Of a stretch of DNA of 35,063 nucleotides, positions 8,601-31,837 are shown piece by piece. The position numbers and the translations under genes were made by a program. The notes beneath the pieces were generated by a model. The model saw only the letters and a list, made by a program, of their open reading frames with translations, did not search any database and was not told the origin of the DNA. The stretch's first letter is position 1. The number at the start of each line of letters is the position of its first letter. Source of the DNA: Planctomycetia bacterium (lineage in GTDB: Bacteria > Planctomycetota > Phycisphaerae > Phycisphaerales > SM1A02); contig SYGP01000009.1 in the NCBI GenBank assembly GCA_005799495.1, forward strand, positions 1 to 35,063. The letters run 5' to 3'.

Positions 8601-10526
8601 ATGTTTGTTCTTGTTCTGCTTTCTGCGGTCGTTGCACAGCAAGCGCTCGATGGGAATCTCCAGCGCGGCGGTGGTTCCGTGCTCGACTCTCGGGTCAACC
8701 CTGGTGGCAATCAGCGTGTGGCACAGCAGGACTACCGTTCGCGCAATCTCATCGTCACGGGCGATGTCACCGCTGGAAGGGGCTTCCGAGGTTCGGTGGG
8801 CTATGTCGCCGAGGATGATTTTCGCGGGGCGACATCGGGCGTCGCCACGCGGGATTTTCGCGCCTATACCGCGAATACGAGCGCGTCAGCCCTCGCATCG
8901 ATCCCGGTGAACGATCGCTACAGTCTCGCGACGGCCATCAGCGCTCAGCCATACCTGCGGGACTACTGGAGTACCAATCCCACGGGCGTGACGGGGCGCG
9001 TGGGTGATGCCCGCGCAAACACAGTGGGACCCCAGACGCAGCTGGTCACCTTTGACCGCAACTTTGCATCGACCATCTCGCGTGCCGAGGCGGCAGATCA
9101 ACGCATTGATCGCGACATGAAGACGCGTCGCGGTTCGATTGTTGCCGACATCGGGTCGATCTACAGTCCCGCCACCATCTCGATGACGCGTGATGCGCAG
9201 CAACGGCCTGTGCGTCTCGTGTCGAGCCCGTTTACGGGTGTCCTTGGTGTTCCCGATGGAGACCTGATCGAGTCGCTTCAGTACGGCGTCTACGGCAGTG
9301 CTCTGCTGCGTGATGATCTGCGGTCGGGTCGGACGGATGGGCGCAAGATGGTTCGGTCGTATCTCTCTGGAATCGTTCCTGAGCAAACACGCGTGCCATC
9401 GCAGGCGCCAGACACTCGCCTCGACACGCGCACTCAGCCGAGCGGAGCATCCGCAATCCGCGCTGCGGAGCAGCAGCCATCGTCTGGCGTGCAGCAGCAA
9501 TCGACGCTGACGACATCCGCTGGAGCAGGGCGGCAGCGACTCATCCTCGAGCAACGCACCCCATATGACCGCGTGCTCGCGAGCAGCACGCGACGCACGC
9601 TCCGTGCGCAGGGGAAACAGGTCGCGGACAGCGGCGACATTTCCCTGGAAGAGTTGCAACAACTCGGGACGGTGAGTGTGGCGGTACGGCAGGGGCTTGA
9701 TCTCAAGCCGCCGATGCCCGTGGATGCAACGGAACAACTGCTTGGCAAGACCGGTGCGACCAAGGATGCGACGACGCTCCTGCCGAGCAATGCCACAAGC
9801 GGAGGCGCGGCGGGCGAATCGACTCCAGACGGTGCCGCCACGGGGCTTGGGGATGGGACGGGCAAGAAGAGCAAGGGCGATGCGGCACAATCGGATCGGC
9901 CGTTGACACCTGAGGAGGCGTACTTGATTCTTGCGCACGGCGAGACCATCAGCCAACTGGATGGCGGTTCAAAGGAGGCGCTCGATTGCTTGCTTCGCCT
10001 GGGCGATGATTCGATGCGGAAAGGTCGCTTCTTCTCGGCGGAAAAGGAGTTCATTGCCGCATCGCAGATCGCGCCCGCGAATGTGTTGCCGCTCGCGGGC
10101 GTGGTGAATGCGCAGGTCGCAGCTGGACTGCAGATGTCCGCGTCCGTCACGATGCGACGCCTGTTCATCAACTGGCCCGAGATGATTGATACGCGGTACG
10201 CGCTGGATCTTCTGGGCGGTGAAGCTCGACTCCGCACCATCGCTTCGGAGTGCGTCACGCGCAGCGAGGGGTCGCGTAGTGCGGGCGATTACGGTTTGGT
10301 CGCCGCATGGATCGGTCACCAGTTGTCAGACCGAGAGCTTGTGAAGAATGGGCTTGAGATTCTTGCGCGGAGCCCCAATGACGCTGAGCTCTTGCGCGCA
10401 CTTCGCACCATCTGGCTTCGAACCACGAACGATGTGCCGATCTTGCCGCAACCGGCGCCGCCCGCGCCAGTCGCGCCGCCCGCGCCGGAAGTAACGCCAG
10501 CCGCTGCACCTCCAGCGGCGCCCTGA
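8601..10526 (+). CDS. Large secreted protein with TPR-like C-terminal region, unknown function
   Basis: This 641-residue protein has a signal peptide (MFVLVLLSAVVAQQALD). The first 300 residues are Arg/Ser/Thr/Asn-rich with no recognised fold. A low-complexity Gln/Ser/Thr/Ala linker follows. A helical part of roughly 150 residues (PLTPEEAYLILAHGE, then GDDSMRKGRFFSAEKEFIAASQIAPANVLPLAG) resembles tetratricopeptide repeats. The C-terminus is a Pro/Ala-rich tail (PAPPAPVAPPAPEVTPAAAP). It may be a cell-envelope scaffold, but no function can be assigned. Longer in-frame starts from 8373 run antisense to the neighbour and are rejected. The stop is 9 bp from the convergent metF stop. Confidence 0.78.
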   Translation: MFVLVLLSAVVAQQALDGNLQRGGGSVLDSRVNPGGNQRVAQQDYRSRNLIVTGDVTAGRGFRGSVGYVAEDDFRGATSGVATRDFRAYTANTSASALASIPVNDRYSLATAISAQPYLRDYWSTNPTGVTGRVGDARANTVGPQTQLVTFDRNFASTISRAEAADQRIDRDMKTRRGSIVADIGSIYSPATISMTRDAQQRPVRLVSSPFTGVLGVPDGDLIESLQYGVYGSALLRDDLRSGRTDGRKMVRSYLSGIVPEQTRVPSQAPDTRLDTRTQPSGASAIRAAEQQPSSGVQQQSTLTTSAGAGRQRLILEQRTPYDRVLASSTRRTLRAQGKQVADSGDISLEELQQLGTVSVAVRQGLDLKPPMPVDATEQLLGKTGATKDATTLLPSNATSGGAAGESTPDGAATGLGDGTGKKSKGDAAQSDRPLTPEEAYLILAHGETISQLDGGSKEALDCLLRLGDDSMRKGRFFSAEKEFIAASQIAPANVLPLAGVVNAQVAAGLQMSASVTMRRLFINWPEMIDTRYALDLLGGEARLRTIASECVTRSEGSRSAGDYGLVAAWIGHQLSDRELVKNGLEILARSPNDAELLRALRTIWLRTTNDVPILPQPAPPAPVAPPAPEVTPAAAPPAAP

Positions 10527-10535
10527 ATCCGCGCT

Positions 10536-11441
10536 TTATTTCCGCAGCGCGTCGGTCGTCGAGACCCCAAGATTCTCGTAGATACGCCGCGTCGCGTCGC
10601 TTTTGTTGAGCGTGTAGAAGTGGATGCCGCGCACACCGCTGTCGAGCAGTTGCCTGCACTGCTCCGTTGCCCAGTGAATGCCAACACGCGCGACCGCTTC
10701 TTCATCACCCTCCGCGCGGCGGATCGCCCGCAGAAGCGGCGCAGGAAAACGAGTCCCCGCCGCCAAGTCGGCCATGCGCCGCAAACCTGTCACGGAAGTG
10801 ATCGGCATGATGCCCGCAAGCAGCGGGACTTTGATGCCTGCAATCTCGCAACGCTCCCGCCAGTCCATGAACGCATGGTTGTCAAAGAAGAGCTGTGAGA
10901 TCACCAGGTCTGCACCGGCCTCGCACTTTGCCTTCAGGTGATCCATCTGCGTCAATGTGTTGGGTGTCTGTGGGTGTCCCTCGGGATATCCGGCAACGGC
11001 AATTCCGAAGCCCTTGCCGCCCTGGACGCGAGAAGCTGGGAACTCCTTCACGCGCCTCACAAGATCCGACGCATATCGAAAGTCCCCGCCAAAATCGCTG
11101 GTGCCAGCGGGCGGATCGCCGCGCAGCGCAAGGATGTTTGCGACACCCGACACCGCATATCGCTCCAAGATGCTTTGGATGTCGTGGGCGGTGTGATTGA
11201 CGCAGGTCAGGTGGGGCATCGCCTCAAGCCCTGTCTCATGCTTGATTCGCACGACCAGATCATGCGTGAACTGCCGAGTCGAACCCCCTGCGCCATAGGT
11301 GACGGACACGAAGGATGGCTTCAGCTTGCCGAAGTCGGCGATCGTGCCGAAGAGGGCGTTCCAACCGCCTTCAGATTTGGGTGGGAAAAACTCGAAACTC
11401 GCGGTGAAAGAGTCGCGCGCGAGCACATCGCTCAGGTGCAT
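10536..11441 (-). CDS. metF: 5,10-methylenetetrahydrofolate reductase
   Basis: MetF reduces methylene-THF to methyl-THF with FAD, supplying methyl groups for methionine synthesis. The 301-residue product has the expected TIM-barrel landmarks: SFEFFPPKSEGG (N-terminal Glu), VSVTYGAGGSTR, LRGDPP, VAGYPEGHP, KCEAGADLVISQLFFD and GIMPITS. Length is normal for bacterial MetF. The ATG at 11441 (minus) lacks a Shine-Dalgarno sequence, but TAGCCT lies 6 nt upstream. It is divergent from rex with a 50-bp gap, so the two promoters sit side by side; no palindromic Rex operator is visible there. Confidence 0.96.
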   Translation of the reverse strand: MHLSDVLARDSFTASFEFFPPKSEGGWNALFGTIADFGKLKPSFVSVTYGAGGSTRQFTHDLVVRIKHETGLEAMPHLTCVNHTAHDIQSILERYAVSGVANILALRGDPPAGTSDFGGDFRYASDLVRRVKEFPASRVQGGKGFGIAVAGYPEGHPQTPNTLTQMDHLKAKCEAGADLVISQLFFDNHAFMDWRERCEIAGIKVPLLAGIMPITSVTGLRRMADLAAGTRFPAPLLRAIRRAEGDEEAVARVGIHWATEQCRQLLDSGVRGIHFYTLNKSDATRRIYENLGVSTTDALRK

Positions 11442-11447
11442 GGCGAG

Positions 11448-11453
11448 AGGCTA
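11448..11453 (-). promoter_or_regulatory. Putative -10 element (TAGCCT) for leaderless metF
   Basis: Read on the minus strand, TAGCCT ends 6 nt before the metF ATG, so the transcript is predicted to begin at or beside the start codon. Confidence 0.5.
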
Positions 11454-11471
11454 TCAGCGCGCTGTCTGACC

Positions 11472-11477
11472 TAGACT
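11472..11477 (+). promoter_or_regulatory. Putative -10 element (TAGACT) for rex
   Basis: TAGACT ends 14 nt before the rex ATG, predicting a very short leader of about 8 nt. Its neighbour on the other strand, the metF hexamer, is 18 bp away. Confidence 0.45.
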
Positions 11478-11491
11478 TTCACGGGGTAGCC

Positions 11492-12178
11492 ATGGACCGC
11501 GTGATTCCCAAGCCGACCGCCAAGCGTCTGAACATCTATGCACGCGAAGTGCAGTTGATGATCGATCAGGGCAAGCAGAAGGTCAGTTCGACCGATCTGG
11601 GAAATCGTGTCGGCGTCAAGAGCAATCAAGTCCGCAAGGATCTCGCGTATCTCGCCCGTGACGAGGTTGCGGGCGACCATGGGCGAGCGGGCATCGGGTA
11701 TGACTGCGAGAGGCTGCTGGGAGGGCTCGAGAAGCTTGTCGGTGCGCAGAAACGCTGGTCGCTGGCGCTCGTTGGCGTTGGCAACATTGGACGCGCACTC
11801 CTGTCCTACGCATCCTTCGATGAAGAGGGCTATCCCATCGCGGCGGTCTTCGATGCCAACGAGAAGATGGTCGGCAAGCGGATAGGGCGCTGGGAAGTTC
11901 AGCCGATTGCGCAGCTCACTCGAACCGTGAAGTCCCGCAGGATTCCCATTGGGATCCTCGCGGTGCCTCGGGAAGCGGCGCAAGGATTGGCGGATCAACT
12001 GTGTGCCGTCGGGGTCGTCGGTCTTCTAAACTTTGCGCCCATGCAGCTCACCGTCCCGTCGCATGTTGTCGTTGCGAACATTGATCTCACCATCACCCTG
12101 AAGCAACTGTCGATGGACATCGCAGCAAGGGATGGCAGCGATCGCACGAACCCTCGCCGCCGCAGGGAGCGCCCTTGA
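11492..12178 (+). CDS. rex: Redox-sensing transcriptional repressor Rex
   Basis: Rex is a dimeric repressor that senses the NADH/NAD+ ratio and releases DNA when NADH rises. The 228-residue product has an N-terminal winged helix (IPKPTAKRLNIYAREVQLM, then VSSTDLGNRVGVKSNQVRKDLAYL) and a C-terminal Rossmann domain (LALVGVGNIGRALLSY). The late motif LLNFAPMQLTVP and the final VVVANIDLTITLKQL are typical. It ends in a basic tail (RRRRERP). Two lipoprotein genes are coupled downstream, an unusual pairing. No intact TTGTGA-N-TCACAA site was found in the window, so its targets are elsewhere. Confidence 0.95.
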   Translation: MDRVIPKPTAKRLNIYAREVQLMIDQGKQKVSSTDLGNRVGVKSNQVRKDLAYLARDEVAGDHGRAGIGYDCERLLGGLEKLVGAQKRWSLALVGVGNIGRALLSYASFDEEGYPIAAVFDANEKMVGKRIGRWEVQPIAQLTRTVKSRRIPIGILAVPREAAQGLADQLCAVGVVGLLNFAPMQLTVPSHVVVANIDLTITLKQLSMDIAARDGSDRTNPRRRRERP

Positions 12179-12822
12179 AAGTCGCGCGTCCAATCGGGCT
12201 CGGGGCTGCGGTGGGTGCTGCGGTGTGGGCTGCGATCACGATCGGCTGTTCATCGGCGCGCGTGATGATGCCGACGGACAATGATGGACTTCGCCGCGAG
12301 GTGCAGGGGCTCCGTGAACAGGTGTCGGCGCTCGAAGCGCAGCGAATGGAGTTGCAGCAGCAGTTGGCGGCTGCGACGAAACCCGTGGCCGAAGCCGGGT
12401 CGATCGATGCGCAAGTGGCCGAGGCAACGCCACAACTCGTCTCTCTCACCGTGGAGGCGGGAAGCCACTTTCTGTCGAAGCCCTCGGCGAATGGGGGGCC
12501 AACTTGTGAGGCGGTGATCTATCTGAAGCCGACGGATGGACGCGGTCGATTCATGCAGATTGTTGGACGCGCGCGCGCGAGTGCGTTCCAGTTGCATGCA
12601 GACGGGCGGGTGGTGAATCTGGGAACGGCACAGTGGGATCCGATTGAGGTACGCGACGCATGGCGCGACGGGATCTTTGGCGCCCACTACACCCTTCGGC
12701 TGCCCCTGACGGCGGAGGGGTGGAGTTGCGGCGGGGCGCCCGTGACCGTTCGGGTCGAGTTCACCAGCCAGCCGGATGGTCGTACCTTCTCGGCGCAGCG
12801 TGAAATGCCCTTCCAGCAATGA
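12175..12822 (+). CDS. Putative lipoprotein with coiled coil, unknown function
   Basis: From TTG 12175, which overlaps the rex stop (TTGA), this is a 215-residue product. GGGAG lies about 6 nt upstream and supports the start. The N-terminus is basic, then a hydrophobic segment (GAAVGAAVWAAITIGC) ends in a lipobox-like IGC. Residues around 40-65 form a predicted coiled coil (LRREVQGLREQVSALEAQRMEL). The C-terminal domain appears beta-rich and contains AEGWSCGGAPVTVRVEF. No family recognised. The overlap implies translational coupling with rex, so its level should follow Rex. Confidence 0.72.
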   Translation: MKVARPIGLGAAVGAAVWAAITIGCSSARVMMPTDNDGLRREVQGLREQVSALEAQRMELQQQLAAATKPVAEAGSIDAQVAEATPQLVSLTVEAGSHFLSKPSANGGPTCEAVIYLKPTDGRGRFMQIVGRARASAFQLHADGRVVNLGTAQWDPIEVRDAWRDGIFGAHYTLRLPLTAEGWSCGGAPVTVRVEFTSQPDGRTFSAQREMPFQQ

Positions 12823-20386: not shown

Positions 20387-21402
20387 CAGTCCGCTCCCTC
20401 CGAGCTCGCAATGCCGACTTGACGCGCGCCGGGACCGGTGCAGGTCAGCATCAGGAATGCTCCGAGGACGGCGATCAACCCAGATGCCCACTGCCACCAT
20501 GCGAATCGTTCGCCGTAGATGAACGCGCTTGCGATGCCGACAAAGAACGGCTGCAATTGCAGCACACCGCTCGTGATGACGATGCCGATGCGTGCGATGC
20601 TGATGTAGTACAGGATGTGACCAAGTGCAATGCCGATGATCGCACTGACGAACAACTGCAGCAGGACCAAGCCCGGAAGGTCGGGAACGCCGCTGCCGCC
20701 CGCATCACCGAAGAGCAGCATGAGAGCGATCAAGCCGATCGCCGTCATCTGGCAGATCGCTGCGAACGCGGTGATGGGGTGGTACGAGCCCATGCACCGC
20801 CGCACGCCGAGTCCGTACATCCCGTAGCTGAACGCACAGAAGATGCTGAGCGCGGTACCCCACGCATTGAATCCGCCGAGCGATGCGTCCCCTCCGAGCA
20901 GCACGGGGAAGAGTCCGCCAAGCAGGATTGCGGCACCGATGAGATAGCGAGGGCTGCGGATGATGGATCGCTCGCTCGGGACGAACATGTACGCGCCGAT
21001 CGCAACCCAGATCAGTTGCGTTCGGAGGCCGAAGGTCACGAGACCCGGGTTCATCTCGTGAAATGCCGCAGTGAATGCAGCCTGTCCGGCGATGTTGAAC
21101 AGCGATGGGATGAGCGCGTCACGCCAGATGCGCATGGGCAGTCGCCCACGCCGCCACGCAAGCACGAGAGCCGGCAGCCAGATCACCGCGCTGACGCCAT
21201 ATCGCCACCCGTTGTTGCTCCAGTGATCGACCTCCGAAGCAAGATCGCGCAGAAAGAGTGGAACGGTCGACCAACATGCGAGCGTCAACAGCATGCACGT
21301 GATGCCGAGCGTGGCCTTCGAGGGCGGTGCAGCGGGTTTGTCTTCCGCCATGCTCACCGGTGTCGTCACCGAAAGGTCGCGTGGTTGCCTCGTGTGATTC
21401 AT
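20386..21402 (-). CDS. EamA/DMT-family permease
   Basis: This 338-residue protein has about ten hydrophobic helices in two repeats, the architecture of drug/metabolite transporters (EamA). The first repeat starts at LGITCMLLTLACWSTVPLFL. The second includes GTALSIFCAFSYGMYGLG and ISIARIGIVITSGVLQLQPFF. The start overlaps the kmo stop by 4 nt (ATGA) and the stop overlaps the dehydrogenase start by 1 nt, so it is embedded in the kynurenine operon. I infer transport of tryptophan, kynurenine or an aromatic intermediate; direction and substrate are not visible. ATG 21351 is a possible later start. Confidence 0.85.
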   Translation of the reverse strand: MNHTRQPRDLSVTTPVSMAEDKPAAPPSKATLGITCMLLTLACWSTVPLFLRDLASEVDHWSNNGWRYGVSAVIWLPALVLAWRRGRLPMRIWRDALIPSLFNIAGQAAFTAAFHEMNPGLVTFGLRTQLIWVAIGAYMFVPSERSIIRSPRYLIGAAILLGGLFPVLLGGDASLGGFNAWGTALSIFCAFSYGMYGLGVRRCMGSYHPITAFAAICQMTAIGLIALMLLFGDAGGSGVPDLPGLVLLQLFVSAIIGIALGHILYYISIARIGIVITSGVLQLQPFFVGIASAFIYGERFAWWQWASGLIAVLGAFLMLTCTGPGARQVGIASSEGAD

Positions 21403-22811
21403 GCACTGCCTGACATCAAAGCGCGCACAAGCAGAACGCCTCCCACGACGATAACGCCGAGCGCGGCAACGGCGACTGCCGTCAGCACCGCATCCTGTCG
21501 CTGTGACTTCGCAAGGGCATCGGCGTAGGGGATCGTGTCGAAACTCACCATGTCGTAGCGGGGCGTGAAGAGCGCAGGCACAAAGCGGTGCAGCAGGTGT
21601 TCGATGGACTTGCGGGTGAGGAAGAGCCGCGATGCGGTGCGGTCGCGCATCTCGATGAAGTTCTGCAGTGCCATCTCGGCGATCGCATCCGCGTTGGGCT
21701 TGCGTGTGCGTTCGTAGTCGTGGATCGCCCTCGCGACATTCGTTGGATGGCGTTCGAGCGAATCCACCAACGCTTCGCAGTCCTCGAAACTGGCGTTCGC
21801 TCCCTGACCGAAGAACGGAACGATCGCATGCGCCGCATCGCCCACGAGCACTGCGCGTCCACCCGAGGACCAGGGGCGGCAACGGATCGTGAGCATCCAA
21901 CCAACGGGATTCGCCGCGAAGTCGGCATCGAATGTCGGCATCATCGAGAGCGCATCGGCGTAGTTGCGTTCGAAGTGGCGGCGCCCAAGGACTGGATCAG
22001 CAATCACGTCGAAGCCATCCGCGGCTCCATCGACACTTCGATGCGGCCAGAAGAGCGTGCAAGTGAACGAGCCGTCTGGATTTGGGAGTGCAATCATCAT
22101 CGAGCTCCCGCGCGGCCAGATGTGCAGCGCATTCGGTTCCATGGCAAAGGGCGCATGAGGCCCCGAGGGAACTGGCGCGATCGTCATCTCCTTGTAGCCA
22201 TGCCCAAGCCAGGACTGCTCAAAGTCGAATCCTTCGCGCCGCTGCATGGCGCTGCGCACGGCGCTGTATGCCCCATCCGCTCCGACGATGAGATCGGCCT
22301 CCACGCGCTCTTCGCCCCCGCCCGTGCCATTCACAAATGTGGCACGCCCCCGTTCTCCATCGAGATCGCTGCAGCGCTGATCGAACGAGATGCGGACATT
22401 CGGCTCCGCGGCGGCAGCGTTCAGGAGAACCAGATTGAGCGCACTTCGGGAGATGCTCAGGATCGCGTGGTCCGGATTGCTGCTGTACTGCTGAAAGGTG
22501 AGCGCGCCCGACCGCGCATGCATCATGCGGCCAGGCATGCGTATTGCATCGCGCAAGATGTGCGTTTCCAGCCCGGCGCGCCGCAGCGCCTTGATGCCGC
22601 GCGCACTGATCGCCAGATTGATGGAGCGGCCTTGCACAAAGTTGCGGCTGCGAGGATCGCCGCGCCGTTCGCGCAGATCAACCTGCCATCCCGCGCGCGC
22701 GAGATAGATCGCGAGCAGCGAACCTGCGAGCCCTGCTCCAGCAATGACAACTCGCTTCGGCACCACGAAAGTGTACGACTGAGCGATCCTTGCGGCGCGG
22801 CGGAACGCCAT
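21399..22811 (-). CDS. kmo: Kynurenine 3-monooxygenase
   Basis: KMO is an FAD- and NADPH-dependent hydroxylase making 3-hydroxykynurenine. The 470-residue product has the dinucleotide-binding GAGLAG (residues 25-30), RSINLAISARG, GADGAYSAVR and the FAD motif GDAAHAIVPFFGQG. NxFxE is seen as QNFIEMRD. A C-terminal hydrophobic helix (VAVAALGVIVVGGVLL) suggests membrane anchoring, as in eukaryotic KMO. ATG 22811 lies 6 nt after the kynU stop. A GTG at 22763, directly before PKRVVIAGAG and 6 nt after TACACT, may be an alternative start that omits a 16-residue extension. Confidence 0.95.
   Translation of the reverse strand: MAFRRAARIAQSYTFVVPKRVVIAGAGLAGSLLAIYLARAGWQVDLRERRGDPRSRNFVQGRSINLAISARGIKALRRAGLETHILRDAIRMPGRMMHARSGALTFQQYSSNPDHAILSISRSALNLVLLNAAAAEPNVRISFDQRCSDLDGERGRATFVNGTGGGEERVEADLIVGADGAYSAVRSAMQRREGFDFEQSWLGHGYKEMTIAPVPSGPHAPFAMEPNALHIWPRGSSMMIALPNPDGSFTCTLFWPHRSVDGAADGFDVIADPVLGRRHFERNYADALSMMPTFDADFAANPVGWMLTIRCRPWSSGGRAVLVGDAAHAIVPFFGQGANASFEDCEALVDSLERHPTNVARAIHDYERTRKPNADAIAEMALQNFIEMRDRTASRLFLTRKSIEHLLHRFVPALFTPRYDMVSFDTIPYADALAKSQRQDAVLTAVAVAALGVIVVGGVLLVRALMSGSA
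22770..22775 (-). promoter_or_regulatory. Possible internal -10 element (TACACT) for kmo
   Basis: On the minus strand TACACT ends 6 nt before a GTG (22763) that opens the conserved KMO core. If active it would give a leaderless shorter KMO and an internal promoter for the distal genes. Confidence 0.35.
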
Positions 22812-22817
22812 CCGCGT

Positions 22818-24122
22818 TCATGGGTGCAGCGCTTCGATCAGTCGCCAGCAATCGCTGAAAGAACAGTAGAGCGGGGCGGGTGCCGCGCGGATGACACGCG
22901 GGTGACGGAAATCGCAGACCACGCCTTGCGGAAGGAGCCGATCAAACCGTGCTCGTGCCTGCGCCGTGGATCCTTGCACTTCGATCGACAGCTGACAGCC
23001 GCGCTGCCCCGTGGCACTTGGCGTGATGACGCGGAGATCGCTCTCGCGCACGCGAAGCGCCATCTCCAGGAATGCAGTCATCACGCGCGCCTTCGCCGCG
23101 AGTCGTTCCATCCCTGCCTCGGCAAACAGCTCGAAACTCGCGAGCAGTGGCGCCAACGAAAGCACGGGTGGATTCGACAACTGCCACGCATCCGCACCCG
23201 GACCGGCGGCAAAGTCTGGTCCCATCGCAAAGCGTGTTGCGGGGTCCGTACCCCACCACCCTTCCAGTCGCGGCGGAGGATTCGCATGGTGCCGCTCATG
23301 CACGAATGCTCCGGCAACGGCCCCTGGGCCACCGTTGAGATACTTGTAGGAGCACCAGCATGCGAAATCGACACCCCAGTCGTGAAGTGCCAGCGGCACA
23401 TTGCCAACCGCGTGCGCAAGATCCCAGCCGCAGAGCGCACCCACCGCATGTGCAGCGCGCGTGATGCGCGGCATGTCAAGCACCTGCCCCGTGTAGTACT
23501 GAACGCCACCGAGGATCACCAGCGCAAGCGAATCTCCTGCATCGGCGATCGCGCGCTCGATGTCCTGCGTCTGGAGGCACGACTCGCCGCCGCGCGGGCC
23601 GACCTCGATCACATCCTTGTCCGCATCGCCACCAGTCGCCGCCACGAATGACCGAACGGCGAAGCGGTCGCTCGGAAATGCGCCCTGTTCGATGAGCACC
23701 TTGCGCCGCAAGCCTTGCATGCGCGAAGTGGGCAGAAAACTCATCAGCAGCAGATGCAGATTCACCGTCAGCGTGTTCATCGCGATGACTTCCGACGGCA
23801 GACCGCCTGTGAGCAGCGACAATCCACTGCGAAAGTGTTGGTGGTAGTCGATCCACGGACGACGCCCGTGGACATGCCCCTCTGCCCCGAGTCGCGCCCA
23901 GTCGTCCAGCTCCTCCTGCACGCGCGTCCTTGCAGCCTTCGGCATCAGCCCGAGCGAGTTGCCCACGAGGTACGCCATCTCGCGTCCCGATGCATCCTTC
24001 GGAATCTCGAAGCGACTGCGCAGCGCAGCGAGCGGATCACATGCATCCGCCCATGCGGCGAACGCGGTGGTGGGCTCGATGTCGCTTGCCGAGATATCCA
24101 AGATGCTCCGTGCAACTGTCAT
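22818..24122 (-). CDS. kynU: Kynureninase
   Basis: KynU is a PLP enzyme of fold type I that splits (3-hydroxy)kynurenine into (3-hydroxy)anthranilate and alanine. The 434-residue product shows YLVGNSLGLMPKA, the substrate-binding SEVIAMNTLTVNLHLLLMSF, GWDLAHAVGNVPL and the PLP lysine in WCSYKYLNGGPGA. HERH and WWGT segments follow as in the family. The start ATG 24122 overlaps the decarboxylase stop by 4 nt (ATGA). A longer upstream reading frame runs through the decarboxylase gene and is not real. With KMO present, the substrate is likely 3-hydroxykynurenine. Confidence 0.96.
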   Translation of the reverse strand: MTVARSILDISASDIEPTTAFAAWADACDPLAALRSRFEIPKDASGREMAYLVGNSLGLMPKAARTRVQEELDDWARLGAEGHVHGRRPWIDYHQHFRSGLSLLTGGLPSEVIAMNTLTVNLHLLLMSFLPTSRMQGLRRKVLIEQGAFPSDRFAVRSFVAATGGDADKDVIEVGPRGGESCLQTQDIERAIADAGDSLALVILGGVQYYTGQVLDMPRITRAAHAVGALCGWDLAHAVGNVPLALHDWGVDFACWCSYKYLNGGPGAVAGAFVHERHHANPPPRLEGWWGTDPATRFAMGPDFAAGPGADAWQLSNPPVLSLAPLLASFELFAEAGMERLAAKARVMTAFLEMALRVRESDLRVITPSATGQRGCQLSIEVQGSTAQARARFDRLLPQGVVCDFRHPRVIRAAPAPLYCSFSDCWRLIEALHP

Positions 24123-25138
24123 GCGTTCACCTCGACAAGACCGAGAAACTCGAGCGCGGTGCCGCGAAGCATGCGCGTGCGCTGCGCATCGGTCAGCCAC
24201 TCCGCGGCGCGCACGAGTCGACCCGGCGGGATTTCCCCGAGCGGAAATGGATAGTCCGATCCCAATGCGATGCGTGATGCACCCACCGTGTCCACGAGGT
24301 ACCGCAGCGCACCCATGTCGTGCACGATGCTGTCGAAGTAGAGCCGCTGCAGATGTGCACGAGGCGGCGTGGTCGAATGGGTCGCACAGAGATCGGGGCG
24401 TGCCGCAAAACCATGCTCGATGCGACCAAGCGTGTAGGGAAACGCACCGCCGCCGTGCGCGAAGCAGATCCGAAGTCTTGGGTGCCGATCGAGGACTCCA
24501 CCGAACGCGAGCGCACAGAATGCGCGCGCGCTCTCCGCGGGCATTCCCACGAGCCACGGCATCCAAAAGCGAGGGATTTCGGCGCGGCCGAACATCTCCC
24601 AAGGATGCACAAACACCGCCGCACCGAGTTCCTCCGCAGCGGCGAAAAAGGGCGCGGTCGCAGGGTCGTCGAGATCGCGCCCCGCCACATTCGTGCCGAT
24701 CTGCACGCCGGCGAGACCCAGATCCCGAATGCAGCGCTCCAGCTCGCGCGTGGCACGCGAAGCGTCCTGCAGCGGCACGCTCCCAAGCCCCACAAAGCGC
24801 GACGGATTGCCGCGCACGACGCCCGCCAGATGGTCGTTCAAGAGTTGCGCAAGGTCATGTGCGTGGTCCGCTCGCGCTCCATAGGAAAACATCACGGGTA
24901 CGGTGGAGAGCACCTGAACGCCGATGCCATCCCGGTCGCAGTCGCTCATCCGCCGCTGCGCATCCCAGAGATCTGACTCGACTTCACGAAACAGCGTGCC
25001 ATCGATCATCATGCGAGCGCGGCATGCCCCGCAGTGCTCGAGCGCAACCCAACCACCGCACCCGAAACGCTCGCGCAGGTCCGGCCAGCGTTCGGGGAGG
25101 ATGTGCGTGTGCAGATCGATCGCACCAGGCGCAAGCAT
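24119..25138 (-). CDS. 2-amino-3-carboxymuconate-6-semialdehyde decarboxylase
   Basis: ACMSD is a zinc amidohydrolase-fold decarboxylase that diverts the ring-opened intermediate from quinolinate/NAD synthesis to complete oxidation. From ATG 25138 it has 339 residues, close to the roughly 335 of the human enzyme. The sequence is strikingly like animal ACMSD: IDLHTHILPERWPDLRERFG, LSTVPVMFSYGA, RFVGLGSVPLQ, GVQIGTNV, VHPWEMFGR, WMPWLVGMPAE, CFAHGGGAFPYTLGRIEHGF, RPDLCA, GSDYPFPLGE. Zinc residues H10, H12, the HP and AHGG histidines and the Asp of GSDYP are present. It overlaps the dioxygenase stop by 1 nt. A start at 25195 would run into the upstream gene. Confidence 0.96.
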   Translation of the reverse strand: MLAPGAIDLHTHILPERWPDLRERFGCGGWVALEHCGACRARMMIDGTLFREVESDLWDAQRRMSDCDRDGIGVQVLSTVPVMFSYGARADHAHDLAQLLNDHLAGVVRGNPSRFVGLGSVPLQDASRATRELERCIRDLGLAGVQIGTNVAGRDLDDPATAPFFAAAEELGAAVFVHPWEMFGRAEIPRFWMPWLVGMPAESARAFCALAFGGVLDRHPRLRICFAHGGGAFPYTLGRIEHGFAARPDLCATHSTTPPRAHLQRLYFDSIVHDMGALRYLVDTVGASRIALGSDYPFPLGEIPPGRLVRAAEWLTDAQRTRMLRGTALEFLGLVEVNA

Positions 25139-25752
25139 CAGGAAGTCCGCGGGGCGGGCTTGGAAACGCGCGTGCCGCACTTGGGGCAGGTGCATGCCGC
25201 GGGATCAGCCCAGAACTCCTCCATCCGCTCGCGGAAGTGTTTCACGATATCGATGCAGTCGAACTCGATGTCGCGGACAAGCGTGTCGCATGCATCGCAG
25301 AAGAACATGATGTGCTCGGTTTCCGTTGGAGGTCGGCGTCGTTCCACGACAAGCCCAAGCGTGTTCGGTCCACGCTGCGGTCGGTGCGGAACGCCACCAG
25401 GCACAAACAGGACCTCTCCCTCGCGCAGCGGAATGTCGCGTAAACCGTGCGCATCCCGCACACGAATGCTGACATCGCCTTGCAACTGCATGAAGAACTC
25501 CTCGGAGTTCGTCATGTGAAAGTCATTGCGCGCATTGGGTCCCGCAATCAGCATGACGAAGAAATCCTGTCCGCTGTAGAGGTACTTGTTGGAGACGGGA
25601 GGCACCATCAGATGCCTGTTCTGCTTCGCCCATTCAGCCAAGTGCACGGTGTTTGCGACGCCACCGATGCCATCCCATCCTGTGGGATCGCCGAGCGCGT
25701 CGTGCGCTGGCTTCGGAGCGGCAACGACTGCAGTGGTCTTGAAGGTGCTCAT
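25138..25752 (-). CDS. 3-hydroxyanthranilate 3,4-dioxygenase
   Basis: This cupin-fold Fe(II) enzyme opens 3-hydroxyanthranilate to ACMS. In the 204-residue product the iron ligands are visible as H79 and E85 (NDFHMTNSEEFF) and H123 (VPHRPQRG). A C-terminal rubredoxin-like metal site is formed by C152/C155 (FCDAC) and C189/C192 (CPKC), the two-metal bacterial form. About 25 extra residues precede the usual N-terminus. It is the first gene of the minus-strand kynurenine operon. ATG 25752 has no Shine-Dalgarno sequence, but TAGACT lies 6 nt upstream. Confidence 0.95.
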   Translation of the reverse strand: MSTFKTTAVVAAPKPAHDALGDPTGWDGIGGVANTVHLAEWAKQNRHLMVPPVSNKYLYSGQDFFVMLIAGPNARNDFHMTNSEEFFMQLQGDVSIRVRDAHGLRDIPLREGEVLFVPGGVPHRPQRGPNTLGLVVERRRPPTETEHIMFFCDACDTLVRDIEFDCIDIVKHFRERMEEFWADPAACTCPKCGTRVSKPAPRTS

Positions 25753-25815: not shown

Positions 25816-26280
25816 GTGATGGCAGCGACCACTGGACGCACATGGTCCTCGCACCCCGCACGGGAGCGACCGCTCGCCGCATGCGTCGCCATCGCAGTCG
25901 TTGGGGCGATGGCAGTTCTGGTTTGGCGCATTGCAGGGGATTGGATGTGGGGTGCGCTTGCGGCAATCGGACTCCTGATCGCGATTCTGCGATTCCTGTT
26001 GCCCACACGCTGTGGCATCGATGCACGCGGAGTCGTGATTCACCGACCGTTGTCATCCCAGCGTGTCGCGTGGGCCGAGATTGCAGCCGCCGAGGTCAGC
26101 GCCGATGCGATGGCGATCACACTTCAGCACTTCAATGCTCGCGTGCATTCGATCACCATTCCGCTCAGCGGACTCACGGCCGAACAGCGCAGAGGCGTAC
26201 GCGATGAGATCGCCGCCGCAGTCGGATACCCCATCACGGAATCGCGTACCGGCAATGCGGGGAGGAGCGAAAGGCGATGA
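25816..26280 (+). CDS. Membrane protein with PH-like domain, unknown function
   Basis: The 154-residue product (153 from ATG 25819) has two adjacent transmembrane segments (LAACVAIAVVGAMAVLVW and MWGALAAIGLLIAILRFLLP). A small soluble domain follows with GIDARGVVIHRPLSSQRVAWAEIAAAEV. That pattern of strand, turn, then W-x-E/D-I is like bacterial PH-type domains after membrane hairpins. No enzyme motif is seen. The start GTG/ATG pair was chosen by the TACGCT spacing. Its stop overlaps the next gene by 4 nt (ATGA), so both form a small operon. Reading frames starting further upstream would run through the dioxygenase. Confidence 0.7.
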   Translation: MMAATTGRTWSSHPARERPLAACVAIAVVGAMAVLVWRIAGDWMWGALAAIGLLIAILRFLLPTRCGIDARGVVIHRPLSSQRVAWAEIAAAEVSADAMAITLQHFNARVHSITIPLSGLTAEQRRGVRDEIAAAVGYPITESRTGNAGRSERR

Positions 26281-26702
26281 AGGGATCGAACTCGCCTTGG
26301 CAGCGCATCACATCCGCGTTGCGATACGCGTTCCATGTGCAGCCGCCAGGGCCCGCGAAACCGTCGGCGGAAGAGGCGGCGGTGGTGGAACGTATCGCTG
26401 AAGAGATCGTGCGCCGGCGGATGGCGGTCGCTGCGCTCGTCTTCCTGGAATCCAGTCGCCCGCTCTCTGGCGTGGGTGCGGCTGCGATGCACTTCCTGGC
26501 GCCATTCGCGACGACGGTCATCAAGCCTGATCTCTGGTCGCTGCTCACGCGCTTTCTCGAGCGCGCGGGCTCGGTCGAGTACCTCTGCCTGCGCATCGAG
26601 GATCTCGAACGCCATTCCGCGGGAAAGGCTTCCGCCTCTGCGGCCTCAGCCGATCCAGCCGGCGACGACGGGCCAGAGCACCGCAGTCCAGACCGCGGCT
26701 GA
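26277..26702 (+). CDS. Conserved-looking hypothetical protein
   Basis: I do not recognise this 141-residue protein. It has a basic N-terminus, an amphipathic helix (EEAAVVERIAEEIVRRRM), then a moderately hydrophobic stretch (AVAALVFLESSRPLSGVGAAAMHFLAPFATTV) that might sit in or at the membrane. A polar, probably disordered tail (SASAASADPAGDDGPEH) follows. It is coupled to the upstream PH-like membrane protein by ATGA. Its last 57 bp overlap the 3' end of the convergent dgkA gene, in the tail region, which could mean the real protein is shorter or that the overlap is tolerated. Confidence 0.6.
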   Translation: MKGSNSPWQRITSALRYAFHVQPPGPAKPSAEEAAVVERIAEEIVRRRMAVAALVFLESSRPLSGVGAAAMHFLAPFATTVIKPDLWSLLTRFLERAGSVEYLCLRIEDLERHSAGKASASAASADPAGDDGPEHRSPDRG

Positions 26703-27148: not shown

Positions 27149-28942
27149 ATGCGGATCGTGGCCACCGACTGCGGCAGCACGACCACCAAAGCGATCCTCA
27201 TCGAAGAGATCGACGGTGTGTTCCGCCAGACATTCCGCGCGGAGGCGCCGACCACGGTGGAGGAGCCACTCGCCGACGTCACCATCGGCGTGACGAACTC
27301 GATCACGGAACTGCAGGAACTTTCGGGCTACCGATTGGTCGCGGATGATGGCACGATCATCCGCCGAGCAGCAGGTTCGAAAGGCGACGGCTGTGATGTG
27401 TACATCTCCACATCCAGTGCGGGCGGTGGACTGCAGATGATGGTCGCGGGAGTCGTGCGGGAGATGACGGCAGAGAGCGCCAAGCGTGCGGCGCTCGGAG
27501 CAGGTGCGATCGTCATGGACACGATCGCGAGCAATGACCGTCGTCGACCGCATGAACAGATCCAGCGCATCCGCGAACTGCGACCCGACATGGTGCTCAT
27601 CTCCGGCGGTACCGATGGCGGCGATGGGAAGAAGGTCGTGGAACTCGCAGAATTGATCGCGCCCGCGCGCCCCCGGCCGCGCTTCGGCGGCGAGTATCGG
27701 CTGCCGCTGATCTTTGCGGGGAACAAGGCAGTGCGCGGCGACATCGAGCGCATCTTTTCTTCGGAAGGATTCGCACTGTCCGTCGTCGACAATCTCCGTC
27801 CCACGCTTGAACAGGAGAACCTCGGGCCAGCACGCGAGCGGATCCATGATGTGTTTCTCGAACATGTCATGGCGCATGCGCCGGGCTATGACAAGCTGAT
27901 CGAGTGGACGAATGCACCGATCATGCCGACCCCAGGAGCGGTTGGCGACATCCTGCAGGCCATCGCGCGTGAACGCAAGATCAATGTCGTCGGCGTTGAC
28001 ATCGGTGGGGCAACCACGGATCTCTTCAGCGTATTCGGCGGGATCTTCAATCGCACGGTGAGCGCCAATCTCGGCATGAGTTACTCCGTCTCGAATGTCT
28101 GCGCCGAAGCGGGCATGGAACAGGTCCTGCGGTGGGTTCACCTGGACATGGATGAACGCGAACTCCGAAATCGCGTGAAGAACAAGATGATTCGTCCAAC
28201 GACGATCCCACAGACGCACGACGCGCTGGTGTTCGAGCAGGCAGTCGCGCGCGAAGCCCTGCGGTTGGCCTACGCGCAGCACCGTGCGTTCGCGACCAAG
28301 CTGAAAGGCGTCCAACAGCAGCGCACAGTCGGAGACACATTCCGTCAGGATGAGGGGGCGGGGTCGATCGTCGATCCGATGCTGCTCGACCTGCTCGTTG
28401 CATCGGGCGGTGTGCTCAGCCATGCGCCGCGCTTCGAGCAGACATTCCTGCTGATGATCGACTCCTTCGAGCCGACGGGATTCACGGCGATCGCGAAGGA
28501 TTCGATCTTCATGATGCCGCACCTCGGCGTGCTTGCATCGATCAACACTCGCGCGGCGATGGAAGTATTCGAACGCGACTGCCTCGTGCCGCTCGGTTGG
28601 TGTGCAGCGCCCAAGGGCGAAGTGCGCATCGGAAAGCCTGCGCTCTCCTTCGAATTGCGCGGCGAACGCGGCGTGATCGCCAAGGGCGCGTTGAATGGCG
28701 GGGAGTTTCGCCTCGTTCGGCTTGCCATGGGTGAACGCGCCACGCTCGAAGTGCGACCGGAGCGCGGACTCGACATGGGCGCAGGGGCTGGAAAACCCGC
28801 GAGCCGAGCCATCGAGGGCGGAGCGGTCGGCGTACTCATCGATGCGCGCGGCCGTCCGCTGCAGTTCCCGAAGGATCACGCGGAGCGACGCAAAGCCGTG
28901 GCGTCATGGGTCGAGGCGGCGGAGGTGTACGAACACGCATGA
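27149..28942 (+). CDS. GlmL/MutL-type ASKHA ATPase
   Basis: The 597-residue product belongs to the glutamate-mutase-L family (unrelated to mismatch-repair MutL). These are actin/hexokinase-fold ATPases encoded beside B12-dependent mutases in clostridia and presumed to reactivate them. Phosphate-binding signatures are VATDCGSTTTKAIL (residues 4-17) and VVGVDIGGATTDLFSVF (about 280). SAGGGLQMMVAGVVREMTAESAKRAALGAGA and LISGGTDGGDG are typical of the family. No glutamate mutase S or E subunit is nearby. ATG 27149 places the first signature at the N-terminus, as expected. It overlaps the next gene by 4 nt. Confidence 0.88.
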   Translation: MRIVATDCGSTTTKAILIEEIDGVFRQTFRAEAPTTVEEPLADVTIGVTNSITELQELSGYRLVADDGTIIRRAAGSKGDGCDVYISTSSAGGGLQMMVAGVVREMTAESAKRAALGAGAIVMDTIASNDRRRPHEQIQRIRELRPDMVLISGGTDGGDGKKVVELAELIAPARPRPRFGGEYRLPLIFAGNKAVRGDIERIFSSEGFALSVVDNLRPTLEQENLGPARERIHDVFLEHVMAHAPGYDKLIEWTNAPIMPTPGAVGDILQAIARERKINVVGVDIGGATTDLFSVFGGIFNRTVSANLGMSYSVSNVCAEAGMEQVLRWVHLDMDERELRNRVKNKMIRPTTIPQTHDALVFEQAVAREALRLAYAQHRAFATKLKGVQQQRTVGDTFRQDEGAGSIVDPMLLDLLVASGGVLSHAPRFEQTFLLMIDSFEPTGFTAIAKDSIFMMPHLGVLASINTRAAMEVFERDCLVPLGWCAAPKGEVRIGKPALSFELRGERGVIAKGALNGGEFRLVRLAMGERATLEVRPERGLDMGAGAGKPASRAIEGGAVGVLIDARGRPLQFPKDHAERRKAVASWVEAAEVYEHA

Positions 28943-30066
28943 CGAAGGCGTACACGCCAGGCCTGAAGGTTGCTGCGTCGACCATCTACCGCGTTCGGCG
29001 GCTGCTGCCCGTACCGGGTGATGTACGCGTTCAGGTTGGCGCGCGCGTGCAGGCAGACGCCGTGATCGCCGAGACATTCCTCGATGGAGATGTGTTTCCA
29101 GTCAAGGCAGCATCCCTGCTTGGGGTGCAGCCTGGCGAGCTGCCACCGCTCATGCTGAAGAAGGTGGGCGATCCCGTGCAGACTGGCGAAGTGATCGCAC
29201 AATCCAAAGGCATCTTCGGCATGATGCGAACGCAGGCGAAGTCAACCGCAGCGGGCACGATCGAGAGCATCAGTGGCACGACGGGCATGGTGCTGCTGCG
29301 CGGACCGCAGACCCCCGTTCAGGTTCGTGCGTTCGTGTGCGGCGAGGTGGTCGAGGTCATGCCGCGGGAAGGTGCGGTGATTGAAACGCCTGCAGCATTC
29401 ATCCAAGGAATCTTCGGAGTCGGCGGCGAATCGTGGGGTCCACTCGTTGCGGCATCGCCGCAGCCGACCGAGGATCTGACTGCGCTGCAGATTTCGTCCG
29501 CGATGCAGGGCGCGGTGGTCTTTGCGGGTGGACGGATGACGGCGGAAGCGATCGCAGCGGCGCGGGCTGCGGGCGTGGCGGCGCTCGTGTGTGGCGGCAT
29601 CGATGATGCAGATCTGAAGGATGTGCTTGGGCACGATCTTGGCGTGGCGGTGACGGGAAACGAGCGCATCGGCATCACGCTCATCGTGACGGAGGGATTC
29701 GGCAGCATCGCCATGGCACGGCGGACATTCGATCTTCTGATGTCGCTCGTCGGCAAGCAGGCGAGCGTGAATGGCGCCACGCAGATTCGCGCGGGTGTCA
29801 TTCGGCCCGAAATCACCGTGCCACTCGCGGAGTGTTCGAGCGCATCGCTCGCGTCACGAGGCGGCACGGCAGGACTTCTGCTGATTGGAACTCCCGTCCG
29901 CATCATTCGCGATCCGTACTTCGGCCTGCTCGGTTCGGTGTCTCGTTTGCCGGAGAAGCCCGAAGCGTTGGCGTCGGGTTCGATCGCTCGCGTACTCGAG
30001 GTGCAACTCGATGATGGGTCGCGCGTCACAGTGCCTCGTGCCAATGTCGAACTGATCGAAAGTTGA
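28939..30066 (+). CDS. GlmL-partner protein, uncharacterised, with hybrid-barrel and KOW-like ends
   Basis: The 375-residue protein is not a family I can name. The N-terminal 130 residues look like a barrel-sandwich hybrid: VPGDVRVQVGARVQADAVIAE, VGDPVQTGEVIAQSKGIFG and STAAGTIESISGTTGMVLL recall lipoyl/biotinyl-type turns (GDxVxxGxxI). No biotinylation lysine in the usual MKM context is seen. The middle (SSAMQGAVVFAGGRMTAEAIAAARAAGVAALVCGGIDDADL) looks like an alpha/beta domain. The C-terminus (GSIARVLEVQLDDGSRVTVPRANVELIE) is KOW/SH3-like. ATG 28939 overlaps the ATPase stop (ATGA), so the two are made together and probably act together. Confidence 0.8.
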   Translation: MTKAYTPGLKVAASTIYRVRRLLPVPGDVRVQVGARVQADAVIAETFLDGDVFPVKAASLLGVQPGELPPLMLKKVGDPVQTGEVIAQSKGIFGMMRTQAKSTAAGTIESISGTTGMVLLRGPQTPVQVRAFVCGEVVEVMPREGAVIETPAAFIQGIFGVGGESWGPLVAASPQPTEDLTALQISSAMQGAVVFAGGRMTAEAIAAARAAGVAALVCGGIDDADLKDVLGHDLGVAVTGNERIGITLIVTEGFGSIAMARRTFDLLMSLVGKQASVNGATQIRAGVIRPEITVPLAECSSASLASRGGTAGLLLIGTPVRIIRDPYFGLLGSVSRLPEKPEALASGSIARVLEVQLDDGSRVTVPRANVELIES

Positions 30067-30115: not shown

Positions 30116-30712
30116 ATGACGAGTCACCACTACCCCCGTCCAATCTTCGCGGTGAAGGCGATTGCAGTTCTCGCCGGATGTGCTCTTGTGTCCGCATCCA
30201 ACGGCTGTGCGGCACGCGTCATTGCGATGCAGGCTGCCCGAAAGCACGCAGCCCAGGAAACCCCGGCGCATGTCACGACATTCGCAACGATGGCGGATGC
30301 CAACAAGGGCTTCTATGCAGCGCTGAACGAGATGTGCAAGGGCAACGAAGTGCCGATGGAAAGTGTCTGGGCGCACACCACGGATGTGTCGGACTTCGGT
30401 CCCGATGGAAAGATGCACATCGGTTGGGATGCCGTTCGGGCACAGTTCCAGAAGGAAGCTGCGATGAAGCTCAGTGGCACCGTGACTTGCGAGAATGTTC
30501 ACACCATCATGGGCGACACCTTTGGTGTGGTGACATGCACCGAGGTGGGCAAGGGAATGATGGTCGATGGCAAGCCAGCCGACCTGCGTTTCCGTGCCAC
30601 CAATGTGTATCGCAAGGATTCGCACGGTTGGAAGATGGTGCACCATCACACCGATCAGTCCGCGCCGATGGAGGCGTCGGCGGCGGTGACCTCGACCGCT
30701 GCACCGAAGTAA
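30116..30712 (+). CDS. Exported SnoaL/DUF4440-like protein
   Basis: The 198-residue product has an N-terminal export signal (VKAIAVLAGCALVSASNGC) with two possible lipobox cysteines. The mature domain resembles the NTF2-like SnoaL/DUF4440 fold: FYAALNEMCKGNEVPMESVWAHTTDVSDFGPDGKMHIGWDAV, then FGVVTCTEVGKGM, and the ending ATNVYRKDSHGWKMVHHHTD, a very typical last strand of that fold. Such domains bind small molecules or are enzymes of many kinds, so the function stays open. It stands alone between the GlmL operon and the E1-like gene. Confidence 0.75.
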   Translation: MTSHHYPRPIFAVKAIAVLAGCALVSASNGCAARVIAMQAARKHAAQETPAHVTTFATMADANKGFYAALNEMCKGNEVPMESVWAHTTDVSDFGPDGKMHIGWDAVRAQFQKEAAMKLSGTVTCENVHTIMGDTFGVVTCTEVGKGMMVDGKPADLRFRATNVYRKDSHGWKMVHHHTDQSAPMEASAAVTSTAAPK

Positions 30713-30741
30713 TCGCGCGTTCAGACTGCGCCCACCACGCG

Positions 30742-30747
30742 TACAGT
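30742..30747 (+). promoter_or_regulatory. Putative -10 element (TACAGT) for the E1-like gene
   Basis: TACAGT, a one-base variant of TAnnCT, ends 7 nt before ATG 30755. TTCAGA lies 17 nt further upstream and could be a weak -35. Confidence 0.45.
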
Positions 30748-30754
30748 TTGGCGA

Positions 30755-31837
30755 ATGAGTGACGACGCTGCGGCGCAGAGCGATGGGCGTTACCACCGGC
30801 AGCAGTTGATCCCTTGGATCGGCACGGGCGGGCAGCGCTCCATCGGTCAGGCGCATGTGGTCGTCGTGGGATGCGGTGCGCTCGGTTGTGCGGCTGCCGA
30901 CATCCTTGCGCGCTCGGGTGTCGGTCGTCTCACACTCATCGACCGCGATGTCGTCGAGCCATCCAACTTGCAGCGGCAAACGCTCTTCACCGAGCGTGAC
31001 GCGCGAGAGCGGCGACCGAAAGCCGAGGCGGCGCGGGCGCGAATCGGCGAGATCAACTCGACGATCGAGTGCCGCGCATGGGTCGATCACCTCTGTGCCG
31101 AGAACGCGCTCGATTACCTCGGGGGTGCGACACTGCTGATCGATGGGCTGGACAACCTGCGCACGCGTTTTCTGCTGAACGATGTCGCGGTGCAACAGGG
31201 GTTGCCCTACATCTATGGCGGCGCTGTTGGAACCGAGGGGCGCGTGATGCCCGTGCTTCCTGGCGAAGCGTGCCTGCGCTGCATCTTTCCAGAGCCGTTC
31301 TTGGGTGCGCCGCAGCCGACCTGCGATACAGCGGGTGTCTTGATGAGTACGGTGCTCGCAGTCGCTGCGCGGCAAGCGATGCTGACGCTGCAGTGGATCA
31401 GCGGAAACTCGCAGCAGGTCAGCAGGACGCTCTGGTCCTTCGATGCAGCGAGCGGGCGAACCGCGATGGCATCGATCGCACATTCACGCGACGCGCATTG
31501 TGCCTGTTGCGGTCGGCGCACCTTCGAGTTTCTCGGCGCTTCGTGCGAGGAGCAAGCGACGGTTCTGTGCGGGCGCAACGCAGTGCAGATCGTTCCCGCG
31601 AAGGGAGCCGCTGCGACGATTCGGTGTGATCCGCAGTTGCTCCAAGCAACGCTCGCGCCACATGGCAACTTTGAAGTGCATGGGTCGCGCCTCGTCGGCA
31701 CGATGCGCGAAGTCACGGCGGTCGGCGGCGGGAGGATCGACTTGACGATCTTCTCAGATGGTCGTGCGATTGTCGGTGGCACCACCGACCCGATCTTCGC
31801 GCGCACCCTCTATGACCGATTCATCGGTGGGTGCTGA
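30755..31837 (+). CDS. ThiF/MoeB-family E1-like adenylyltransferase
   Basis: This 360-residue protein adenylates the C-terminal glycine of a ubiquitin-fold sulfur carrier (ThiS/MoaD type) or a related substrate. Landmarks are the opening YHRQQLIPWIGTGGQ, the nucleotide loop VVGCGALGCAAADILARSGVGRLTLIDRD, EPSNLQRQTLF, IDGLDNLRTRFLLND, and the zinc pairs CLRC and CACC. The candidate catalytic Cys is in PTCDTAGVL, matching MoeB. No rhodanese domain follows; instead about 90 residues end in DGRAIVGGTTDPIFARTLYDRFIG, a tail often seen with MoeB/ThiF proteins. No carrier gene is adjacent. The target pathway, thiamine or molybdopterin, cannot be decided here. Confidence 0.88.
   Translation: MSDDAAAQSDGRYHRQQLIPWIGTGGQRSIGQAHVVVVGCGALGCAAADILARSGVGRLTLIDRDVVEPSNLQRQTLFTERDARERRPKAEAARARIGEINSTIECRAWVDHLCAENALDYLGGATLLIDGLDNLRTRFLLNDVAVQQGLPYIYGGAVGTEGRVMPVLPGEACLRCIFPEPFLGAPQPTCDTAGVLMSTVLAVAARQAMLTLQWISGNSQQVSRTLWSFDAASGRTAMASIAHSRDAHCACCGRRTFEFLGASCEEQATVLCGRNAVQIVPAKGAAATIRCDPQLLQATLAPHGNFEVHGSRLVGTMREVTAVGGGRIDLTIFSDGRAIVGGTTDPIFARTLYDRFIGGC

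Follow-up and report, generated by a model that had tools for sequence, protein, structure and literature searches.

FtsA and PilM are cytoplasmic ATPases of the ASKHA superfamily which belong to membrane machines. DUF6754 proteins (PF20539) form an uncharacterised family. The accessory protein GlmL/MutL (PF13941, NF040745) is described, in an excerpt of PMC4682846, as a chaperone reactivating glutamate mutase. Part of PMC7674605 presents the alpha subunit of glycerol dehydratase reactivase as an ATPase joined with a swiveling domain. We analysed a window of 35,063 nucleotides (contig SYGP01000009.1 of assembly GCA_005799495.1, 'Planctomycetia bacterium'; the whole stretch examined) that contains a GlmL/MutL-type ATPase gene, here called A, followed by a partner gene, B. 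A sequence-only reading of the window had presented an orphan ATPase and its partner as a candidate two-component chaperone or reactivation system for an unnamed client. We consider it reasonably probable that A and B are the ATPase and adaptor serving a conserved inner-membrane complex; its members would be four further proteins, C, D, E and F, probably joined by Y, and Z would be a small accessory protein.

The superfamily of A is already known. The gene set itself we rate as categorically new, with a mechanism that we infer. No description of DUF6754, of PF13941 with PF20539 or of a planctomycete 'glutamate mutase L' was found in the openly licensed literature searched, in agreement with the earlier suggestion of an undescribed system. 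Beyond the MutL domain of A, DUF6754 and fn3, the members scanned gave no Pfam match over cut-off, and likewise none in NCBIfam.

Conservation of the A–B pair and its association with C to F

Gene A (27149..28942, + strand; ATG at 27149, TGA at 28942) encodes an ASKHA ATPase of 597 residues with a PF13941 match, and gene B (28939..30066, + strand) a protein of 375 residues. As noted earlier from the sequence, the start of B overlaps the stop of A, the two sharing an ATGA at 28939-28942. B belongs to a conserved family: a scan of a species-level genome collection yielded at least 552 confirmed relatives among at least 590 pattern matches, and the best 80 loci of these were analysed. Most of their record titles name Planctomycetota; the rest are five Neomarinimicrobiota, three Zixibacteriota, two WOR-3, one Hydrothermus, one Fermentibacteria and some with another or no phylum label. 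The gene set is found, at least in part, under the titles Gimesia, Schlesneria and Planctomicrobium. A and B are separate genes at the same locus in 64 of the 80. In 61 cases the gap could be measured (B starts being estimated): seven pairs overlap or abut, 42 lie within 50 nucleotides and 54 within 200. In five loci, all titled Neomarinimicrobiota (L058, L092, L099, L108 and L111), A and B form one open reading frame (ORF). Eleven B loci have no A nearby; all 11 genomes carry A elsewhere, in one of them (G213) as a fragment at a contig end. Clustering of B from the 80 loci and the window at 80% identity gave 60 clusters, so the loci are not mutual copies; A is in the locus for 49 of these clusters and C for 50. 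B was present in 35 of 61 genomes, the window's own included, and in 12 of 18 genomes of the same genus, at 65–94% identity.

The commonest gene order among the 80 loci is (Y)-(Z)-A-B-C-D-E-F. Fifty-four loci contain B to F; with Y uncounted, 38 of them read ZABCDEF, 10 ABCDEF, four BCDEF and one ABCEDF, and in one (L112) A-B and C-F are on opposite strands. Of the 73 loci with at least 600 nucleotides of room, 64 have the start of C at most 300 nucleotides from B. The nine exceptions are L036, L040, L054, L086, L094, L097, L102, L110 and L112; in L040 and L112, C is farther away or on the other strand. Variant arrangements are Y-Z-C-D-E-F-A-B in L122 and, in L125, the usual Y-Z-A-B-C-D-E-F followed by a second C-D-E-F. 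The pair is therefore no orphan, and its earlier reading as a two-component system is not supported, since it usually stands in a larger set rich in membrane proteins.

Presence and absence were recorded in 156 genomes of the window's phylum, for which 90% completeness was asked. A scored over cut-off in 43, B in 40 and C in 43; all three were found in 39 and none in 111. A and B occurred together in 40 genomes, A alone in three (G087, G129 and G159), B alone in none, and neither in 113; a match in G148 was below cut-off and tallied as none. For B and C the corresponding counts were 39 with both, one with B alone, four with C alone and 112 with neither. The four genomes with C and no B (G085, G096, G129 and G159) are all assemblies of 240–660 contigs. 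G095 and G111 carry B and C on separate contigs. Fisher's test gave p <1e-30 for each pair of A, B and C, uncorrected for relatedness. Fusion, adjacency and co-occurrence together bear out the earlier view of A-B as a unit, and show it to be conserved; the view that the pair is not tied to glutamate mutase is also supported (see below).

C combines a signal-like N-terminus, an fn3-like stretch, a membrane segment and a DUF6754 domain (405.8 bits in L099), and so belongs to this family. Hydropathy predicted two segments each in C and E (with a third, signal-like one in one C), and several membrane segments in D and several in F. The two segments of E flank a domain with the motif DFDPxxxxELxPM. 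Among ten C to F proteins (from L040, L095, L099 and L112) searched against Pfam, DUF6754 alone was matched over cut-off; all else was below cut-off, and no pilus or division protein was matched. In PDB profile searches, C hit fn3 domains, with titin ranked first, and D, E and F gave nothing significant. Homology between C and E, suspected by eye, was rejected: hhalign aligned a membrane segment only, at a probability of 2%. In the window's own genome (assembly of 2.36 Mb, 97.81% complete), C, D, E and F are on a separate contig, C40; all eight genes are present, split between it and the window, and C is shorter (325 residues).

Sequence features and predicted folds of A and B

A covers the whole PF13941 profile with about 426 bits against a cut-off of 27. 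It scores below the curated NCBIfam cut-offs for GlmL (228.6 against 475), Or-4 (212.2 against 600) and the GlmL family (164.1 against 204.05), and is thus a member of the family by Pfam and not by NCBIfam. These curated cut-offs alone are weak evidence, because a GlmL-like protein encoded beside GlmE in genome G087 also falls below them (90.4, 49.4 and 57.1). In locus L124, also from the window's phylum, a GlmS-GlmE-GlmL cluster was seen at 9221-12300; its GlmL scores 102 bits on PF13941 against about 427 for A, and the Pfam model may therefore rest largely on A-type proteins.

Three stretches of A, all on the + strand, are strictly conserved in the aligned sequences with letters at these positions: DCGSTTTK (27167..27190; identical in 33 of 33), DIGGATTD (27998..28021; 34 of 34) and SGGVLSHAP (28403..28429; 34 of 34), which we take to be the phosphate-1, phosphate-2 and adenosine motifs, respectively. 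The whole MutL profile and the ATP-binding motifs are what A has in common with GlmL/MutL. It differs in the lack of GlmE from its own genome, in its steady partner B, in the usual neighbours C to F and in a C-terminal extension of about 120 residues (28583..28939, + strand) past the Pfam MutL domain, the match to which stops at residue 478. In the model of the fused homologue L111, the equivalent of this extension is strand-rich and confidently predicted.

No family in Pfam or NCBIfam was matched over cut-off by B. Weak Pfam matches to biotin/lipoyl domains were seen in 24 of 25 aligned members and to KOW in 10 of 25 (E up to 1; the window's own B, P0002, is among the 25). Sequence searches of the PDB gave nothing significant, either with the window pair (P0001 and P0002) or with the profile of B. 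The AlphaFold2 model of B has a predicted local distance difference test score (pLDDT) of 85.4 and a predicted template modelling score (pTM) of 0.69. Three domains are predicted, all on the + strand: an N-terminal barrel-sandwich hybrid (residues 10-150 approximately; 28966..29388), confidently modelled and with weak Pfam matches to biotin/lipoyl and RnfC_N; a middle domain (about residues 153-296; 29395..29826), which we assign to the swivelling beta/beta/alpha class; and a C-terminal KOW/SH3-like domain (about residues 313-375; 29875..30063). The lipoyl-like N-terminus and KOW-like C-terminus that the sequence-only reading had seen in B are thus reproduced by the predicted fold, and the middle domain is added here.

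Structural matches of the three domains have Z values at or modestly above the 7–8 that unmatched models reach. The barrel (residues 49-123) matched 6twm_C with Z 7.9, root-mean-square deviation (rmsd) 2.2 and 68 aligned residues, a Z that may reflect merely a common arrangement. The middle domain matched 2hi6 (Z 9.1, rmsd 2.7, 110 aligned), the RraA structure 1q5x_C (Z 8.9, rmsd 3.2, 127 aligned) and 5hv2 (Z 8.5, rmsd 2.8, 101 aligned). For the C-terminal domain the matches were 8ram_Z (Z 8.2, rmsd 1.1, 51 aligned) and NusG 1m1g_C (Z 8.1, rmsd 1.7, 55 aligned), and Foldseek gave the SPT5 KOW domain 8p4e_Z with probability 1.00 and rmsd 1.4. Within residues 84-103 of the barrel no lysine is invariant, K90 being kept in 38 of 48 sequences; B as a lipoyl or biotin carrier was therefore rejected.

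The fused homologue L111, modelled from 36 sequences, was compared with known structures. VIA-align placed FtsA first (1e4g; Z 14.5, rmsd 4.7, 262 aligned), and PilM was close (5eox_B; Z 11.8, rmsd 9.1, 268 aligned). In fold, the A part is thus predicted to be nearest to FtsA. A itself matched no FtsA or PilM family of Pfam at E up to 1, and the C to F members scanned have no Pfam match to division or pilus proteins. These matches of a predicted model are shared folds, not shared functions.

Candidate roles of the gene set

By a narrow preference we regard Y-Z-A-B-C-D-E-F as an undescribed ATP-driven envelope machine of diderms (Planctomycetota, Neomarinimicrobiota, Zixibacteria and others), with a GlmL-type ATPase and a swivelling adaptor driving a multi-subunit, two-sided inner-membrane complex. 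A would bind and hydrolyse ATP in the cytoplasm. The swivelling domain of B would relay the resulting conformational change to the membrane parts, be it C with its DUF6754 domain or another. The domains of C and E may lie on opposite faces of the membrane, and the machine would link the use of ATP in the cytoplasm to an event in the envelope, such as assembly, gating, transport or remodelling.

Several observations weigh against this proposal. The 80 loci are those closest to the query and not a random sample, and the Fisher values overstate independence because the sampled genomes are related. B had no match in six of the 18 genomes of the same genus, C to F lie outside the window itself, and genome G164 has A and B with no match to C. 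In seven of the nine loci where C does not follow B, it was not found at the locus (L036, L054, L086, L094, L097, L102 and L110; for the last five the search covered the locus only). Diverged second A-B pairs occur in L118 (2001-5017) and L119 (8391-11332) and, fused, in L120 (9275-11749) and L121 (9310-11817), with no C to F in the 13–19 kb fetched around them; a pair of this type may therefore also act alone. The membrane topology was derived from a hydropathy window and positive charges. As to contact between A and B, the fused L111 model (pLDDT 76.9, pTM 0.75) gives merely a hint.

Among the alternatives, the best surviving is still unlikely: A might be an ATP-using enzyme of the hydantoinase, acetone carboxylase or CoA-dehydratase-activator type; its target would be a small molecule or a redox partner, B would serve as domain carrier and C to F would be its membrane-bound partner. 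The top Foldseek matches of the L111 model were N-methylhydantoinase (9h03_A, E 3.6e-8) and acetone carboxylase (5svc_B, E 4.7e-8), with Hsp70 also among the first. VIA-align gave 9gai_O of the benzoyl-CoA reductase type (Z 12.0) and the CoA-dehydratase-type activator 4eht_B (Z 11.8), and A itself matched PF01968 weakly (E 0.0018, below cut-off). However, the Foldseek matches reflect a shared fold at low whole-model TM-scores (0.17–0.19), inspection of the neighbour clusters by eye showed no known enzyme that recurs with the whole set, and the barrel of B lacks an invariant lysine in the stretch scanned.

We give little credence to the pair as a reactivase or chaperone of a coenzyme B12 enzyme, be it glutamate mutase, methylmalonyl-CoA mutase (MCM) or another, although A belongs to the MutL/GlmL superfamily with its known reactivating chaperone (PMC4682846, in part). 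GlmE (PF06368) was not found in the window's own assembly, where GlmS was looked for solely via the B12-binding family PF02310; the statement of the sequence-only reading that no mutase gene is present holds to this extent. It had counted glm genes elsewhere in the genome together with an unconserved pairing against the pair; we found no glmE, and the pairing is conserved. The survey that it had suggested, for the two genes in genomes free of GlmE, gave 40 of 156 genomes with A and B, and GlmE in none of these 40. Over cut-off, GlmE occurred in a single genome of the 156, G087; three more had it below cut-off, none of them B-positive. In G087, which lacks B and C, the gene neighbours of GlmE are GlmS and a GlmL-like protein of 416 residues that shares 26% identity with A over 252 columns. 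MCM was found in 106 of the 156 genomes, negatives being inferred from absence among these 106: 18 of 40 B-positive and 88 of 116 B-negative genomes have it, so that 22 of the B-positive ones lack it. Neither enzyme is therefore a required client, and both, the two B12 enzymes surveyed across genomes, are disfavoured as targets of a reactivase.

The own genome does encode one MCM large subunit (by Pfam) and three B12-binding proteins, which by eye are MetH-like, a B12-binding/MeaB fusion and B12-binding sensor-like. Among 25 recurrent neighbour clusters no B12 enzyme was recognised by eye, no Pfam scan of the clusters having been made. The predicted architecture offers some likeness to the alpha subunits of the diol and glycerol dehydratase reactivases (2d0o; 1NBW), in which the ATPase is joined to a swiveling domain (PMC7674605, in part): the L111 model matched the diol dehydratase-reactivating factor 2d0o_C with Z 10.3, rmsd 4.8 and 268 aligned residues. 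Here the ASKHA fold comes from A and the swivelling domain identified is that of B, which on this reading would play the part of the reactivase domain. In contrast, B is a separate protein with two further domains, the barrel-sandwich hybrid and the KOW domain; its gene is separate in the window and fused to A in the five loci of 80. No dehydratase gene was recognised by eye among the recurrent neighbours; no dedicated search was made.

Just as improbable is that A-B forms a two-component chaperone of its own for a soluble client, linked to C to F by shared regulation only. In favour of this, the ASKHA fold is common with Hsp70, second A-B pairs lie away from C to F, and in L136 (titled candidate division WOR-3) MerR/HspR-like and sigma-factor-like genes come after A (by eye). 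Against it, B and C are jointly present in 39 and jointly absent in 112 of the 156 genomes, and they co-occur even when unlinked (G095 and G111).

As to the reactivation of a client proposed earlier, a chaperone-like action of A-B is possible, and its target would more likely be the membrane partners than a soluble enzyme. A replacement of FtsZ-based division, considered for the FtsA likeness of A, was dropped, because Planctomycetota are said in part of PMC12283558 to divide without FtsZ while 113 of the 156 genomes have neither A nor B. An anti-phage defence system was rejected, since eight proteins, one per gene, gave no PADLOC match at E up to 0.1, and so was plasmid cargo, since B had no match in PLSDB.

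The membrane system described here, conserved with A, B and C together in 39 of 156 genomes of the phylum and seen by record title in other phyla, has neither name nor assigned function in the sources searched. Labels of the B12 type, taken from family names, are in use in the annotation of A-type proteins. If the envelope-machine proposal is true, 'glutamate mutase L' would misname these proteins. The family of A is named for vitamin B12 metabolism, and annotation by family name may therefore credit bacteria with a pathway they lack. The set provides a list of eight genes for study in cultured relatives.

Genes Y and Z and the neighbourhood of the pair

Gene Y (25816..26280, start approximate, + strand) encodes a small protein that is predicted to have one or more membrane segments and possibly ends in a PH-like tail; in the one member scanned, the match to bPH_6 was below cut-off. 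Its hidden Markov model (HMM) family was found in 40 of 81 loci, the window included, mostly just upstream of Z. The stop of Y overlaps the start of Z in the window as ATGA. Gene Z (26277..26702, + strand) is also small, and its HMM family occurs in 54 of the 80 related loci. No hydrophobic segment was predicted in two members of Z, and no Pfam family was matched at E 0.01. In some genomes where A stands apart from B, Z adjoins A.

Between Z and A, a diacylglycerol kinase gene (PF01219; 26646-27125, - strand) overlaps the end of Z; in L039, L040 and L041, relatives identified by clustering lie on the upstream side of the pair. After B, where most relatives have C, the window encodes SnoaL-like and ThiF-family proteins (30116-31837, + strand). 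Four unrelated ORFs separate C from D in L058 (5561-11908), one of which starts like an SMC/AAA-type ATPase (by eye). A stands beside a sigma-factor-like gene in L130 and L136 (titled WOR-3), with the MerR/HspR-like gene between them in L136. Locus L067, titled 'Bacteroidia bacterium', has neighbours that also occur in planctomycete loci (for example L048 and L050) and is possibly a mislabelled metagenome-assembled genome.

Farther upstream, the - strand of the window carries a likely kynurenine-pathway cluster (21399-25752), with a 3-hydroxyanthranilate dioxygenase (PF06052) and an Amidohydro_2 protein identified by Pfam; the ORF at 21399-22811 is monooxygenase-like by eye. Genes upstream of the pair in L102 (2482-11122) and L115 (3089-11108) resemble those of glycine cleavage, being GcvT- and GcvH-like in both and also GcvP-like in L102 (by eye). 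By clustering, kynurenine-type genes similar to those of the window are also near the pair in several relatives.

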